Source: Desertivirga arenae (lineage in GTDB: Bacteria; Bacteroidota; Bacteroidia; Sphingobacteriales; Sphingobacteriaceae). Taken from it: 64,000 nucleotides of DNA. This document shows, piece after piece, positions 30,970 to 57,489 of this stretch. The DNA lies in contig NZ_JAFEWE010000006.1 of NCBI RefSeq assembly GCF_017355785.1, forward strand, positions 1-64,000, written 5' to 3'. Both the position numbers and the translations under genes were made by a program. Each line of letters starts with the position of its first letter. Position 1 is the stretch's first letter. Under the pieces are notes generated by a model that ran no database searches, was not told the DNA's origin, and saw only the letters and a program-made list of their open reading frames with translations.

Positions 30970-30983
30970 GTGATCTCTATCAC
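30970..30983. promoter_or_regulatory. CRP/FNR-like palindrome upstream of ccoI
   Basis: GTGATCTCTATCAC is a perfect palindrome, GTGA-N6-TCAC, equally readable as GTGAT-N4-ATCAC, the spacing used by CRP/FNR-family dimers. It lies 59 bases before the ccoI start. A similar site precedes ccoNO (34093-34106). Control of a cbb3 locus by an oxygen- or redox-sensing FNR-type regulator would be typical. No such regulator gene is in the window. Confidence 0.5.
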
Positions 30984-31042: not shown

Positions 31043-33433
31043 ATGATTACGGAGGCTACTCTTAAAGATACCAAGTGCTACCATTGCGGGGCTGAGATAA
31101 AACAAACGACTTACACGTTTGACGAAAAGGCATTTTGTTGCGCAGGATGCGAGAGTGTATACCAGGTCCTTTCTGCAGGAAACCTTTGTGACTACTATGC
31201 CTATAATAGTACACCGGGACAGACGCAGAAAATCAATGAGCAACAGTATGCTTTTCTGGAAGAAGAGTTTATTATCAAAGACCTTATTGATTATCGCGAC
31301 AATACGATCACGAAAATAACTTTTTACATCCCCTCTATTCATTGCAGTTCCTGCATCTGGTTGCTGGAACATTTATATAAACTGAATCAGGGAATCCTTC
31401 ATTCAAGGATAGACTTTCTGAAAAAACAGGTTGCGGTGACCTTTAAGCATGAAGAGGTAAGTTTAAAACAGGTAGTAGAATTAATGGTCTCTGTTGGCTA
31501 TGAGCCACTGATTAGCTTGCAGGATGTAGTAAAGGAGAAACACAGTTCTGTTAACAGGGATCTCATAAAAAGGATCGCGGTTGCCGGATTATGTATGGGA
31601 AATGTTATGTTATTCAGCTTTCCGGAATATTTCGGGCTTTCGGCATTTGAATATCAATACAAAACACTGTTTGGATATTTGAACCTTGCTTTCGCAGTTC
31701 CTGCAACCCTTTATTGCAGCAGGGAGTTTTTCGAATCAGCCTGGAGTGGTTTGAAAAACAAGTTAATTAACCTGGATGCACCATTAGCCTTAATAATCGC
31801 GGTGCTTTTTATCCGCACGGTATTTGAAGTCCTTACTCAAACCGGAGCTGGTTTCTCTGATACATTGACTGGCTTAATCTTCTTGCTGTTGATGGGCCGC
31901 TGGGTTAAGCAAAGGAGTTATTATCACTTATCCTTTGAGCGCGACTATCGTTCATACTTTCCGGTAGCGGTCAGTGTATTAAAGAACGGGAGTGAAAAAG
32001 TTCAGGCAGTTGCAGAACTTAATGTGAATGACAGGATGCTTATCCACAATAATGAAATAACGCCGGCAGATGCTATCCTGATGAAAACAGAGGCATTTTT
32101 TGATTTTAGTTTCGTTACAGGAGAATCAGAGCCCGTTAAAAAAGTGGCTGGAGAAGTTGTGTACGCCGGTGGACGTTTGATCGGTGCTGCTGCAGAACTT
32201 GAAGTGATCAAGCCCGTTTCTCAAAGTTATCTTACCAGTTTATGGAATAATGAGACCTTCTCTAAGAAGACTATCGAAGAGAATTTTAATGATACTATAG
32301 CTAAGTATTTTAGCCTGGTAAGTTTCGTAATTGCCTTTGCAGCTGCTGGTTATTGGCTCTATGCTAATGATAGCAGCAAAGCTTGGGCAGCATTTACGGC
32401 AGTACTAATAGTGGCCTGTCCCTGTGTACTTTCCTTAAGCACTCCATTTACTCTTTCTGCATTATTAGGTGTTTTTGACAAGAATAAATTCTATTTGAAA
32501 AACACTGATGTAGTTGAGAAACTTGCTAAAGTAGACACAACCGTTTTCGATAAGACCGGAACCATTACAGGGACAAGTGGTATTAGCCTTACGGGAGAGT
32601 TAAACGAACTGGATAAAGTATATGTTGCTTCGGTTGCTCACAATTCTCTGCATCCGTTAAGTCGGGAGATCGTTAAATTTTTAAATCCCAACACTTTTCT
32701 GGAAGTGAGGAACTTTGAAGAGAAACCAGGTAACGGTGTTGCAGGATTTGTTAACAATACAGAGATCCGCCTCGGAAGCCATGCCTTTGTGAATACTTCC
32801 GGTGATTACTCTGTTGATTCATCCGTAGTTTATGTAGAGATAGACGGGACTTATAAAGGGTATTTTACTGTTGGTCAGCAATGGAGAGAGGGATTATATG
32901 GGCTGTTTTATGGATTAAGAAAGCTCACCGATCTCCACTTGCTTTCTGGAGATACAGATCAGGACAAACACACATTGTATCATATTTTTCCTTCTCCAGA
33001 CCAAATGCTCTTTCAGCAATCACCTCATGAGAAGCTGGAGTACATAAAAGATCTTCAAAGTCAAAACAAGCATGTAATGATGTTAGGCGATGGATTGAAC
33101 GATGCAGGAGCACTGAAGCAAAGTGATCTGGGAATAGCTGTAACAGATAATATTAACAATTTCAGTCCGGCTTGTGATGCAATTATAAAGGGAGAATCAA
33201 TGGTGAAGCTTCCAAAATTTATCAGACTTGCTAAGAAAGCTATGTTGACTATAAAGCTGAGTTTTGTAATCTCAGCCTCTTATAATCTTATCGGAGTATA
33301 CTTCGCAATTCAGGGTACGCTTTCTCCACTTACAGCAGCTGTGCTTATGCCTTTAAGTACCATTACGATCATCACTTTTACTAGTGTATGCACACGGTAT
33401 TTCTCTAAACAGTTGAAATTAAGAAAGGCTTAG
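31043..33433 (+). CDS. ccoI: Copper-transporting P-type ATPase for cbb3 oxidase assembly
   Basis: 796 residues. The N-terminus has a Cys-rich metal-binding domain (C12-x2-C15 and FCCAGC at 31-36), then an HMA domain with C101-SS-C104. Eight membrane helices follow. The ion path is marked by ACPCVLSLSTP in the sixth helix, the phosphorylated Asp by DKTGTITG, and the hinge by GDGLNDAG. This is the CcoI/FixI type, which exports Cu toward the periplasm for insertion into the CcoN active site. ccoS starts 23 bases downstream. A palindromic site upstream suggests redox control. Confidence 0.93.
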   Translation: MITEATLKDTKCYHCGAEIKQTTYTFDEKAFCCAGCESVYQVLSAGNLCDYYAYNSTPGQTQKINEQQYAFLEEEFIIKDLIDYRDNTITKITFYIPSIHCSSCIWLLEHLYKLNQGILHSRIDFLKKQVAVTFKHEEVSLKQVVELMVSVGYEPLISLQDVVKEKHSSVNRDLIKRIAVAGLCMGNVMLFSFPEYFGLSAFEYQYKTLFGYLNLAFAVPATLYCSREFFESAWSGLKNKLINLDAPLALIIAVLFIRTVFEVLTQTGAGFSDTLTGLIFLLLMGRWVKQRSYYHLSFERDYRSYFPVAVSVLKNGSEKVQAVAELNVNDRMLIHNNEITPADAILMKTEAFFDFSFVTGESEPVKKVAGEVVYAGGRLIGAAAELEVIKPVSQSYLTSLWNNETFSKKTIEENFNDTIAKYFSLVSFVIAFAAAGYWLYANDSSKAWAAFTAVLIVACPCVLSLSTPFTLSALLGVFDKNKFYLKNTDVVEKLAKVDTTVFDKTGTITGTSGISLTGELNELDKVYVASVAHNSLHPLSREIVKFLNPNTFLEVRNFEEKPGNGVAGFVNNTEIRLGSHAFVNTSGDYSVDSSVVYVEIDGTYKGYFTVGQQWREGLYGLFYGLRKLTDLHLLSGDTDQDKHTLYHIFPSPDQMLFQQSPHEKLEYIKDLQSQNKHVMMLGDGLNDAGALKQSDLGIAVTDNINNFSPACDAIIKGESMVKLPKFIRLAKKAMLTIKLSFVISASYNLIGVYFAIQGTLSPLTAAVLMPLSTITIITFTSVCTRYFSKQLKLRKA

Positions 33434-33456
33434 CAGGTAATTTAAAATTTAAAGAA

Positions 33457-33624
33457 ATGGGTATAATATATTTTCTGATAGGTTGTAGTATTGTGATTGC
33501 CCTGATTTTTTTAACCGCTTTTTTCTGGGCAATGCGAACAGGACAAAACGACGACATGCACACTCCGGCAATGCGCATTTTATTCGACGATGATGCCCCA
33601 AAAGGCTCAGAAGATTCAAAATAA
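33457..33624 (+). CDS. ccoS: cbb3 oxidase assembly protein CcoS
   Basis: A 55-residue protein: MGIIYFLIGCSIVIALIFLT and AFFWAMRTGQ form one membrane helix, followed by the typical hydrophilic end with DDMHTPAMRILFDDD. That D-x-P-A-x-R-x-L-x-D-D pattern is diagnostic of CcoS, which is needed for haem and copper assembly of cbb3 oxidase. It starts 23 bases after ccoI and is clearly co-transcribed with it, in the same order as in other bacteria. Confidence 0.93.
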   Translation: MGIIYFLIGCSIVIALIFLTAFFWAMRTGQNDDMHTPAMRILFDDDAPKGSEDSK

Positions 33625-33651
33625 GCATGCGGGTAATAGAATGATTAAGAC

Positions 33652-33722
33652 ACTTGATTGATGGTTAGTTAGAGGTAACAATAAGAGGAAGCCCCCATGG
33701 CACCTCTTACTCGTTGCCCAAA
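33652..33722 (+). repeat. Structured repeat, copy 1
   Basis: Starts with 29 bases (33652-33680) identical to copy 2, with core GATGGTTAGTTAGAGGTAAC. The repeat end enters a hairpin: GGTAAC (33674-33679) with GTTGCC (33713-33718, one G-U pair) and TAAGAGG (33682-33688) with CCTCTTA (33703-33709). The loop holds CCCAT. The presence of the same fold with different stem bases in copy 2 argues for an RNA structure, orientation plus. Confidence 0.6.
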
Positions 33723-33805
33723 TTAAATCAGCTTTCGAATAAAGAATACTCCACTTAGAATTTGGCAGTAAGACAATGCTGAAGATTGTAAGGTTAGGAA
33801 CCAAT

Positions 33806-33882
33806 ACTTGATTGATGGTTAGTTAGAGGTAACAGAGAGGCTGTTCTCCCATAGATAAGCCCTCTGCTCTGTTACCCAATCA
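33806..33882 (+). repeat. Structured repeat, copy 2
   Basis: The same 29-base start (33806-33834), then a stronger stem: GGTAACAGAG (33828-33837) with CTCTGTTACC (33867-33876), 10 bp perfect, extended by AGG (33838-33840) with CCT (33861-33863), and again CCCAT in the loop. The U-G pair of copy 1 is a U-A pair here. The two copies are 154 bases apart, so this is a tandem duplication and not a CRISPR array. Confidence 0.6.
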
Positions 33883-34092
33883 AAATCCAAACTTAAACAT
33901 TTAGAATTTCCAAAAAAACTTCTTGTCATTGGCAATACAATTACACACATTTTCAGCGACGAAACTCTTCAACCAACCTGGATAGAAACACAAATCATTA
34001 TGAGCCAATAAATTAAATAAAAAAACAAGATTTTATAAACCTTTATCTACTACTACTTTAGCTATTCCTATATGGCAAGAAAAAGAAAAAAG

Positions 34093-34106
34093 TGATGAAT
34101 GTCACT
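34093..34106. promoter_or_regulatory. CRP/FNR-like palindrome upstream of ccoNO
   Basis: GTGATGAATGTCAC, again GTGA-N6-TCAC, flanked by A and T to give five-base arms. It ends 29 bases before the ccoNO start. Its position this close to the gene would suit repression, or activation of a promoter nearer the start codon. Finding the same half-sites and spacing before ccoI supports a shared regulator. Confidence 0.5.
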
Positions 34107-34135
34107 GTTCTTAGCCACGCAAATCATTCGCTATC

Positions 34136-36313
<2,178 letters not shown>

Positions 36314-36340: not shown

Positions 36341-36514
36341 ATGTTCAAACAATTTATAGACAAAGTAGGCGGTAGCGAAGTCTATCTGATCTCTTCCCTT
36401 TGGATATTCCTGATATTCTTCATCCTGGTTGCAGTAATGCTATTTAAGATGAAAAAAGACCATATAGAATATATGAGTGAGCTCCCTTTAAATGATACGG
36501 AGGAAGAACAATGA
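36341..36514 (+). CDS. Small single-helix subunit, CcoQ-like
   Basis: 57 residues from ATG 36341: MFKQFIDKVGGSEVYLISS, then one hydrophobic helix (WIFLIFFILVAVMLF), then a charged tail (KMKKDHIEYMSELPL). It lies exactly where ccoQ lies in proteobacterial ccoNOQP operons, and its stop overlaps the ccoP start (ATGA), so translation is coupled. The sequence is not recognisably CcoQ; I assign it by size, topology and position. Its likely role is to stabilise the association of CcoP with the core. Confidence 0.7.
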   Translation: MFKQFIDKVGGSEVYLISSLWIFLIFFILVAVMLFKMKKDHIEYMSELPLNDTEEEQ

Positions 36515-37422
36515 GAAGAGCTATTTATACCCTTGGCCTCCTTGCTTTAAGCACAGCTGTTTTCTCTCAAGAGCAGGCAGCGGCAGCTGATTCAGTGATC
36601 GTTCAGCCCTCAACTCCGGGCTTTCTTGGAACGGGCAGTGTTGCACTCGATTTTCTTTGCGTAGCCATAGCATTACTGGTCCTTATATTATTACTAGTAG
36701 CACTGGTTCTGTTAAACACATTCAAGAAGCTTTCGAAGGAGCTTGCTAATCCAACTCCGGTTAACAACGAGCCGGAAAAGATGCTTGAGTATTATGAATG
36801 GGAGGCCTTACAAAAGAGCAAGCCAGGTATCTGGAGTAAGATCCTCGGATTAAAACCGCTCGAAGAAGAGAAAGATATCCTCCTTGAACATGAGTTCGAC
36901 GGAATTTCAGAATTAGACAATCCTACCCCAGCCTGGTTCATGTGGCTATTCTATGCCACGATTGCTATTGGTGCAGGATACCTCTTCACCTATCATTTTT
37001 CCGGATGGGGTAAACTTCAGGAAGAAGAATATGTGATAGAAATGGATGAAGCTAAAGCAGCAAAAGATGCTCTGCTGAAAGGCTCTGCCAATAATATAGA
37101 CGAGAATAGTGTTAAGGAAACAACTGATAAGGCTGCTCTTTCTTCGGGGGCAGTGGTATATAGTGCAAACTGTATCGCATGTCATGGAGACAAGGCGCAG
37201 GGTGTAGTAGGACCTAATTTAACTGATGAATACTGGCTCCACGGGGGAACAATTAACAGCGTATTTAAGACTATTAAATATGGAGTTCCAGACAAGGGAA
37301 TGGTTTCATGGGGTAAATCTTTAAGTCCGAAACAAATCTCCGATGTAGCAAATTACATCAAGTCGTTAAAAGGATCGAATCCAGCTAACCCGAAAGCTCC
37401 ACAGGGAGAAAAAGAGGGTTAA
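36511..37422 (+). CDS. ccoP: cbb3 oxidase subunit III, mono-haem cytochrome c
   Basis: 303 residues. A signal-like first helix (1-20) is followed by a second helix (45-70), a cytoplasmic stretch with many acidic residues, a third helix (141-160, PAWFMWLFYATIAIG) and a C-terminal cytochrome c domain with one haem site, CIACH at 221-225, and the distal region GTINSVFKTIKYGVPDKGMVSWG. Proteobacterial CcoP carries two haems, and only one is present here, as known for Bacteroidota. The subunit brings electrons to CcoO. It overlaps the upstream small gene, and the stop is followed at once by a G/C hairpin. Confidence 0.92.
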   Translation: MRRAIYTLGLLALSTAVFSQEQAAAADSVIVQPSTPGFLGTGSVALDFLCVAIALLVLILLLVALVLLNTFKKLSKELANPTPVNNEPEKMLEYYEWEALQKSKPGIWSKILGLKPLEEEKDILLEHEFDGISELDNPTPAWFMWLFYATIAIGAGYLFTYHFSGWGKLQEEEYVIEMDEAKAAKDALLKGSANNIDENSVKETTDKAALSSGAVVYSANCIACHGDKAQGVVGPNLTDEYWLHGGTINSVFKTIKYGVPDKGMVSWGKSLSPKQISDVANYIKSLKGSNPANPKAPQGEKEG

Positions 37423-37443: not shown

Positions 37444-37520
37444 ATATACAAAATCTGAAACACAGAAAAACAAGAACGCTAATAGTGAAAAATTCCCTTT
37501 CAGGGAGTTCGGGGGACGAT

Positions 37521-38909
37521 ATGGAAGTAACATTCAGAGATAGAACATCAACCGTTACTGAAGATGGAAAAAATAGGCGATGGATCTATCCAAAGATCAT
37601 TAAAGGCGCGTTCTATAGATACCGCACCTGGTTTAGCTATGTATTATTAACCCTTTTATTTACAGGGCCTTTTATTAAGCTTAACGGGGAGCAATTGATC
37701 CTTCTGAATATTATTGAAAGGAAGTTCGTATTCTTTGGAGTCGTTTTCCTACCTCAGGACTTTTACATCTTTGTTCTTGCCAGTCTTACATTCCTTGTAT
37801 TTGTTTTGCTTTTTACATTGGTATTTGGGCGGGTCTGGTGTGGCTGGGCCTGCCCTCAAACCATCTTCATGGAGATGCTCTTTCGTAAGATCGAGATCCT
37901 GATTGAAGGAGATGCTTCAAAGCAAAAAAAGTTGAATGCCTCGCCGCTAACTGGAGAGAAGCTATTCAAAAAAAGCTTGAAACACGGAATTTTCATCATC
38001 CTCTCTTTTCTTATTGCCAACATCTTCCTCGGCTATATTATTGGCTCTGCTGAAGTAATAAAGATCATTAAAGAGCCAATTAACCAGCATGTTGTTGGAT
38101 TTATCTCAATAGTAATTTTCACCGCAGTTTTCTACCTGGTATTTTCGAAATTAAGAGAATTGGTGTGTGTGGTGATCTGTCCATATGGAAGACTGCAGGG
38201 AGTATTACTGGATAGTAAAAGTCTAGTTGTAGCATACGATTATATAAGAGGAGAACCAAGAGGAAAAAGAAAAAGGAACAATCCTACCCCGGAAAAAGGC
38301 GATTGTGTTGATTGTGATCTTTGTATACAGGTTTGCCCTACTGGAATTGACATCCGAAATGGGACTCAACTGGAGTGCATTAATTGCACCGCTTGTATAG
38401 ATGCCTGTAATTCGGTTATGCGAAAACTGAACCTTGCAGAAGACTTAATCGGGTTCAAATCAGAGGAAAACATAAAAAGCCGTCAAAAATTCAAATTTGG
38501 TAAAAGAATTTATGGTTATGCAGCGATCCTCCTGGTGATGATGACAGCTACGACAACTTTAATTGTTCGCCGGACTGATATAGAAACCACTGTTTTAAGG
38601 GCAGGTGGAACATTGTATCAGGAAAGAGATAATGGAACTGTAAGTAATCTTTACAACGCAGAACTGACAAATAAGACGTCGGGTGCCCTGAGGTTCTCTA
38701 TTGAAGCTGATGAACGGAATTGTGAGATCCAGGTGATCAACAAGGAGAACAAAATTAATAAGGGAGAAAGTGTTAAAGTAACCTTCTTCGTTATTAAACC
38801 GAAAAAAGGAATAAAAGAATATAAGTCAACAGTTTCGCTTAAAGTTATATCCGGTGGAAAAGTGCTGGATAAAGTTGAAACTACATTTATTGCACCACCA
38901 AATAGTTAA
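37521..38909 (+). CDS. ccoG: Cytochrome c oxidase accessory protein CcoG
   Basis: I prefer ATG 37521 (MEVTFRDRTSTV), which matches the usual N-terminus. An in-frame GTG at 37485 would add 12 residues. The protein (462 residues) has five membrane helices, the motif WCGWACPQT, and two ferredoxin-like clusters (CVDCDLCIQVCP and CINCTACIDAC), then a C-terminal immunoglobulin-like domain in the periplasm. CcoG/FixG/RdxA is thought to reduce Cu(II) for the CcoI pathway. It belongs to the ccoNO operon, with the fixH gene four bases downstream. Confidence 0.93.
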   Translation: MEVTFRDRTSTVTEDGKNRRWIYPKIIKGAFYRYRTWFSYVLLTLLFTGPFIKLNGEQLILLNIIERKFVFFGVVFLPQDFYIFVLASLTFLVFVLLFTLVFGRVWCGWACPQTIFMEMLFRKIEILIEGDASKQKKLNASPLTGEKLFKKSLKHGIFIILSFLIANIFLGYIIGSAEVIKIIKEPINQHVVGFISIVIFTAVFYLVFSKLRELVCVVICPYGRLQGVLLDSKSLVVAYDYIRGEPRGKRKRNNPTPEKGDCVDCDLCIQVCPTGIDIRNGTQLECINCTACIDACNSVMRKLNLAEDLIGFKSEENIKSRQKFKFGKRIYGYAAILLVMMTATTTLIVRRTDIETTVLRAGGTLYQERDNGTVSNLYNAELTNKTSGALRFSIEADERNCEIQVINKENKINKGESVKVTFFVIKPKKGIKEYKSTVSLKVISGGKVLDKVETTFIAPPNS

Positions 38910-57189: not shown

Positions 57190-57489
57190 AATTTTTATTG
57201 CATTAATAATTTAATACCAATTTTAAGAAATAATAAACATTTTCATAGTAAAACTAGAAATAAATTTTAATTATCAAAAAAAGTATTGAAAATTTATTTA
57301 CCAGTTGAACATTTTATTATAATGTCGACTTGCGTATAACACCCTACTGCTGCTTTTGTTTAGGATATATGAAGCATGCACTGATATTTCTTCAACAATT
57401 ATCTCAGAAACTTGAAAATGTGTAAACCTTAAATGAGAAATGCCCCTGGATTAACAGGGGCATTTCTCATTTAAAGTTATATTTTCTCT
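57190..57489. other. AT-rich intergenic region with a possible 18-codon frame
   Basis: 300 bases between two minus-strand genes. The left 180 are very AT-rich and probably hold the promoter of the CBM48 gene. On the plus strand a frame from ATG 57369 to TAA 57425 reads MKHALIFLQQLSQKLENV and is followed four bases later by a strong hairpin, so a tiny transcript or small RNA is possible. I would not call it a gene. Confidence 0.3.
57431..57472. terminator. Long hairpin, terminator of the phosphatase-like gene
   Basis: 18-bp perfect stem, 57431-57448 with 57455-57472, core TGCCCCTG/CAGGGGCA, loop GATTAA. It begins 18 bases after the stop of the minus-strand gene at 57490. The T content after it is modest on both strands. 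Confidence 0.75.

Follow-up and report, generated by a model that had tools for sequence, protein, structure and literature searches.

The junction of two cytochrome-oxidase gene sets, ccoIS and ccoNOQP, in the window (the whole 64-kb stretch of DNA analysed here) holds two copies of an element of about 80 bases, for which the best explanation appears to be a lineage-specific pair of structured, cis-acting RNA elements in the 3' UTR of the ccoIS message. This reading is tentative: we give it a probability of roughly 0.38. Each copy would consist of an unpaired block (ACUUGAUUGAUGGUUAGUUAGA) followed by a long hairpin, bulged and capped by the invariant loop CCCAU. The pair would most likely work in cis on ccoIS transcripts that extend towards ccoNO, as a duplicated site at which an RNA-binding protein or a nuclease terminates, trims or stabilises the message and thereby keeps it apart from an independently started ccoNOQP message. 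That the elements are transcribed, that selection acts on the RNA and that a protein partner takes part are steps that we infer.

Several features support this reading: the letters of the stems vary yet their pairs are kept, a wobble pair points weakly to the + strand, the elements run in the same direction as ccoIS, an FNR-type box lies before ccoI, a promoter for ccoNO is predicted downstream, and the spacers have diverged beside an unchanged block. Against it count that there are only two sequences, from one genome and with no convincing relative, that no Rfam family corresponds to them, that copy 2 with its flanks has a better alternative fold, and that the region as a whole folds only mildly better than shuffles.

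The locus and the two copies

The genes, the predicted promoter boxes and the parts of the elements are as follows (coordinates are those of the window).

31043-33433, + strand (co-directional with the elements): ccoI, with Pfam support
33457-33624, + strand: ccoS (FixS, PF03597), with Pfam support
33625-34085 (boundaries approximate): extra sequence of about 460 bases, absent from most relatives, separating the ccoS stop from the putative ccoNO promoter
33652-33729, + strand: first copy of the element, made up of 29-base block, hairpin and CCCAAATTAAATC tail
33652-33680, + strand: identical block of copy 1, whose GGTAAC (33674-33679) forms the 5' side of the outer stem
33674-33718, + strand: hairpin of copy 1, GGTAAC...GTTGCC, with loop CCCAT at 33694-33698
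33806-33887, + strand: second copy of the element, made up of 29-base block, hairpin and CCCAATCAAAATC tail
33806-33834, + strand: identical block of copy 2, with its GGTAAC at 33828-33833
33828-33876, + strand: hairpin of copy 2, GGTAAC...GTTACC, with loop CCCAT at 33848-33852
34092-34105, + strand: GTGATGAATGTCAC, the FNR/CRP-type box of the putative ccoNO promoter
34150-34157, + strand: TACTTTTG, the predicted -7 box of ccoNO, matching TAnnTTTG
34178-36313, + strand: ccoNO fusion (COX1 PF00115 and FixO PF02433), with Pfam support; the start is the one conserved in relatives
36511-37422: ccoP, with Pfam support
37485-38909: ccoG, with Pfam support

A small ORF in the position of ccoQ has no Pfam match. 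From the ccoS stop to the ccoNO start conserved in relatives there are 553 bases; copy 1 begins 27 bases past that stop, ccoS being its nearest co-directional gene, and both copies point the same way as ccoIS. (Elsewhere in the window, at 57425-57478, an almost perfect inverted repeat of 24 bases encloses a 6-base loop; it may be a terminator.)

The preliminary description of this DNA had pointed to an identical 29-base block occurring twice, 154 bases apart, and so it does; no other direct repeat family of 24 bases or longer was reported within the window. The three-codon mini-frame ATGGTTAGTTAG that had been remarked on in each block is likewise there twice, only because the block itself is. 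Likeness between the copies is distributed very unevenly: the block is identical at 29/29 positions and the loop at 5/5, and the 3' part agrees at 13/17, while the stretches holding the two arms of the inner stem agree at 3/13 and 4/14. It extends slightly beyond the hairpins, into the tail CCCAANNNAAATC. Outside the elements it is marginal: as high a score is reached by 71 of 2000 shuffles for the spacers that follow each copy and by 49 of 2000 for the stretches upstream, where the similarity in copy 2 stops about 20 bases before the block. Spacers that have lost nearly all similarity beside a block that has not changed at all argue against a plain recent duplication.

The AUGG of each block (33661-33664 and 33815-33818) is complementary to the CCAU of the loop, four bases being weak evidence. 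A lineage-specific tandem RNA device in the ccoIS 3' UTR could be built on this pairing, within or between copies, with folding or a bound protein deciding whether transcription reads into ccoNOQP. It would amount to a new class of RNA proposed from one genome, and we consider it quite improbable.

Pairing and fold

Each hairpin is built in the same order: outer stem GGTAAC/GTTRCC, bulge, 7-pair inner stem, small internal loop, 3-pair stem and loop CCCAT. On an N-padded alignment of the two copies, all 16 of 16 pairs form in both (32/32 cells), which bears out the earlier picture of hairpins of one shape with differing inner stems around a shared loop. Seven of the 16 pairs differ between the copies on both sides, one differs on one side and eight are invariant; these are the compensating changes previously claimed, as counted on two sequences from one genome that were padded by hand to line up the stems. 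The count is biased towards structure because the alignment was fitted to that structure. Its pairing values are matched by 6 of 500 shuffles, and sliding the alignment by 1-3 columns leaves 0-3 two-sided pairs.

Folding that does not depend on the alignment gives z values of -4.2 and -4.5 for the two hairpins (0 of 200 shuffles in each case). The inner parts of the hairpins alone are equalled by 72 and 448 of 20,000 shuffles. The addition of neighbouring sequence makes for a less simple picture: 1) Copy 1 with its block and a short flank folds less strikingly (z -2.6). 2) Copy 2 with its flanks has an alternative fold, at -28.5 kcal/mol, that displaces the shared outer stem; the shared fold stands at -21.2, or at -25.0 if an extra outer helix is added, so that the alternative is favoured by at least 3.5 kcal/mol. 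3) That extra helix, UUGAUUG/CAAUCAA, yields a gain in energy in copy 2 and none in copy 1. 4) The 556-base region as a whole is mildly structured (z -1.68, with 6 of 100 shuffles as good).

The one-sided change lies in the outer stem, where, as had been noted, GGTAAC/GTTGCC in copy 1 stands against GGTAAC/GTTACC in copy 2. On the + strand it exchanges U-A for U-G; on the - strand it leaves copy 1 with an A-C mismatch. This single wobble pair weakly favours an RNA of the + strand over an RNA of the - strand or a DNA cruciform. Letters that are free where just pairing counts and fixed in the block and the loop have the look of an element recognised as a folded single strand, which would most simply be RNA. 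The case is one built on pattern, in two copies from one genome, and not on descent.

Could the pattern have arisen with no function at all? Template switching maintains the complementarity of the arms of a quasi-palindrome without selection, and by rewriting both arms of each copy together it might have generated the differences seen between two drifted products of a tandem duplication. A 154-base duplication of this kind could have left the marginal similarity that the spacers and the upstream stretches still show. Drift would, however, have had to spare the 29-base block, the loop and the greater part of the 3' tail even as it wore the spacer down almost completely, and we regard this explanation as improbable.

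Searches for further copies

Rfam 15 at its gathering score has no match in the window, and its two sub-threshold matches in 33600-34140 (E 5.2 and 7.4) both lie outside the elements. When 276 bases were compared as DNA with 100 genomes, including the window's own, 97 of the 100 gave some match at E <=10; the best outside the window was 0.001, and the foreign matches listed are short pieces. Twenty-two bases of the block, with up to 3 mismatches allowed, were found among 60 genomes in the window's own genome only, at two places.

In the window's own genome model R1 has five matches at E <=10: the two copies, and three weak ones (E 0.235, 0.433 and 5.44) that were judged non-homologous after their alignment had been viewed. 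A sample of 201 genomes of the family yielded 22 genomes at E <=1, the best foreign match standing at 0.016; the foreign matches were set aside as non-homologous by alignment, 8 of 21 having been viewed. A sample of 399 yielded three genomes at E <=0.02, the two foreign ones representing homologous coding sequence: the matches G687/L194, G699/L195 and G163/L069 are homologous to one another and are not copies of the element, and that in L194 falls within a 394-residue ORF read as an efflux adaptor. At the level of the class (395 genomes), two genomes have matches at E <=0.01, and the foreign one, G272/L090, scores 35.8 bits, with an E-value of 2.8e-4 for the single genome and about 0.1 across the 395 searched. 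It lies just past a short ORF of the opposite strand, may be a terminator, and was judged not to be a homologue; a distant relation is a weak possibility.

Model R2, which is confined to the hairpin, finds the two copies alone in the window's own genome at E <=10. Among the 399 genomes of the family it gives 8 at E <=0.05, the window's own included, where about 20 would be expected by chance on these rough E-values. Its 7 foreign matches were put down to chance; two of them (L199 and L202) end in T-runs, and none has the block in its printed flank. (A technical note: the genome samples used with R1 and R2 overlap, and searches of more than 40 genomes used stricter filters.)

An exact 20-mer of the block has no match in the GTDB contigs, from which genomes very near the window's may be absent, and neither the 20-mer nor a 17-mer of the block occurs in the viral contigs. 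Among the matches listed from phage and plasmid collections, none spans more than 11% of the region. Fifteen viral contigs with the gapped pattern GGTAACA..CCCAT..GTTRCCCAA were rejected: in none is the pattern preceded by the block, and several are identical to one another. At 80 GTDB ccoNO loci the element was not found at E <=1.

The genomes searched thus hold no convincing further copy, and this is so far a single-genome element, real and RNA-like. The preliminary description had itself looked to related genomes for more copies with compensating changes; the models found no convincing ones there, G272 being weak, and a conserved RNA family is consequently not demonstrated. What the window offers at present is a well-formed but solitary pair, whose value lies mainly in its use as a query for future sequences of close relatives; the genus was represented here by only two other genomes. 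If real as RNA, the pair would serve to couple or to keep apart the assembly-factor genes and the structural genes of the cbb3 oxidase; to our knowledge, few such elements are known in this phylum.

The ccoS-ccoNO junction and comparison with known systems

In 71 of 80 GTDB ccoNO loci, ccoS lies upstream in the same direction (of the other 9, 8 yielded no ccoS and 1 has it elsewhere than directly upstream), and the gap to ccoN in those 71 is at most 90 bases in 64, 111-292 in 5 and more than 2000 in 2. In a second set, with ccoS upstream in 15 foreign loci, the gap is at most 115 bases in 13, 582 in G005 and 1387 in G001 (two more loci had no ccoS match, and the rest of the set lacked the start of a close ccoNO relative). 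Since the gap is short in most relatives, the roughly 460 bases are extra to the lineage of the window, and other, unrelated sequence has been added at this junction elsewhere. The 1387 bases of G001 (L172/L033), which is of the same genus, include a gene of the opposite strand; G005 (L037) is a member of the family; and a 292-base gap in Mucilaginibacter psychrotolerans (L100) appears to hold long inverted stretches. The extra bases have no similarity above shuffles to the sequence in G001 (the best local score is 33, against shuffles that reach 45; 28 against 47 in a second comparison) or G005 (29 against 37). A decayed gene was looked for among them without success: there is just one 41-residue frame, with no Pfam match.

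The extra bases end at a putative promoter that is readable from an alignment of about 130 bases before ccoN in the window and 16 hand-chosen relatives (7 from the 30 loci of the second set, 9 from the 80 GTDB ccoNO loci). A TAnnTTT[GAT] box is present in 17/17, and a strict FNR-type box (GTGAN6TCA) in 11/17; from box start to box start the distance is 58 bases in 10 of these 11 and 59 in the other, and the remaining 6/17 sequences are degenerate at the position of the FNR-type box. The box at 34092 would be of the FNR/CRP type. A predicted ccoNO promoter that this group conserves, its FNR-type box 58-59 bases ahead of a TAnnTTTR box, is a by-product that stands more firmly than the reading of the elements. 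A -7 consensus TAnnTTTG at -12 to -5 is described for flavobacteria (PMC9723704); with the boxes at 34092 and 34150, transcription of ccoNO would be expected to begin near 34162, some 275 bases past copy 2, and the FNR-type box itself lies about 200 bases past the elements.

With this promoter downstream of them, the elements are probably outside the ccoNO leader. The preliminary description had proposed a folded RNA or cis-regulatory element in front of the oxidase operon: the folded element and its pair-preserving differences have stood up, and the placement in a leader has become doubtful. A leader element or riboswitch of ccoNO would lie, as these do, upstream of ccoNO on the same strand; the promoter, conserved in relatives, is predicted some 200 bases further downstream and the 80 ccoNO loci are without the element, making this the least credible of the readings considered. 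Another FNR-type box, GTGATCTCTATCAC, lies upstream of ccoI at 30970-30983. Taken together with the predicted ccoNO promoter, it makes the ccoIS 3' UTR the simplest place for the elements.

Why should such elements not simply be doubled intrinsic terminators of ccoIS? They lie directly past the ccoS stop, and some weak foreign matches to the hairpin model (L199, L202) do end in T-runs. Neither stem in the window is trailed by a T-run, however: a terminator scan of 33400-34300 found one terminator-like site, on the - strand, and none on the + strand; moreover, the ccoS-ccoN gap is short in most relatives. We think terminators very improbable.

The invariant 5' part and shape-conserved hairpin would also suit a pair of sibling small trans-acting RNAs, in which the 29-base block is the common pairing region and the hairpin a scaffold that needs shape alone. 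Against this, an exact-match scan of the + strand of 33601-34180 finds TAnnTTTG solely at ccoNO, the similarity upstream of the copies is marginal and ends in copy 2 about 20 bases short of the block, and the + strand has no U-run terminator; we rate sibling RNAs, too, as improbable. (On the - strand, TAAGTTTG at 33895-33888 is a -7-like box pointing into copy 2, a single 8-base match that may be due to chance.)

The main rival, possible though on the unlikely side, is a (formerly) mobile hairpin, REP-like or like the end of an IS200/IS605 element: a single-stranded DNA element, its flank conserved and its stem variable in sequence, of which two insertions would lie ahead of the ccoNO promoter, both pointing the same way. 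The elements do lie within extra sequence absent from most relatives, at a junction that holds other additions in G001 and G005 (both unrelated to the window's) and in L100, and the TTGAT of the block resembles the target of ISDra2. Its difficulties are that the genome has just two copies, that the Y1 (RAYT) transposase, PF01797, is found in 0 of 1 genome, that block and tail lack GTAG and CGTC, that the wobble pair points to RNA, that the copies stand head to tail, and that the block k-mers are absent from viral contigs and no listed phage or plasmid match spans more than 11% of the region. (A reading of the elements as attC sites was dropped in view of the core consensus of such sites.)

The hairpins of L199 and L202, read from their sequences as intrinsic terminators of the family, are like the window's in running from a purine-rich to a pyrimidine-rich arm at similar length; they have T-runs, whereas the window's elements have none and do have the 29-base block. 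Among sibling small RNAs such as OmrA/OmrB, Qrr and LhrC, copies share an identical stretch and a shape-conserved hairpin, and in this the window's copies resemble them; they differ in that neither a promoter of their own nor a U-run terminator is seen on the + strand.

A study of REPs (PMC3733652) describes GTAG- and CGTC-tagged units, among them subfamilies with alternative complementary stem residues and dimers; CGTC-tagged REPs occur in Bacteroidetes, and the CGTC families are listed there without association to transposase genes. Some families have thousands of units and many have 20-100 or even less, and among dimers the head-to-tail order is under-represented in most genomes (ibid.). 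The window's elements are like these REPs in having an unpaired tag beside a stem with complementary changes, and REPs form dimers; the window's elements are unlike them in being two copies only, in head-to-tail order, with no GTAG or CGTC tag and no Y1 transposase in the genome. The pan motif, one of several tandem RNA motifs (Weinberg 2010, PMC2864571), is located upstream of pan genes in three phyla, whereas the window's pair is downstream of ccoS, in one genome and with no Rfam match. The likeness is one of design: in the pan motif, too, the stems keep few unpaired bases invariant and mostly occur in tandem, and a dimeric protein-binding motif has been suggested there.
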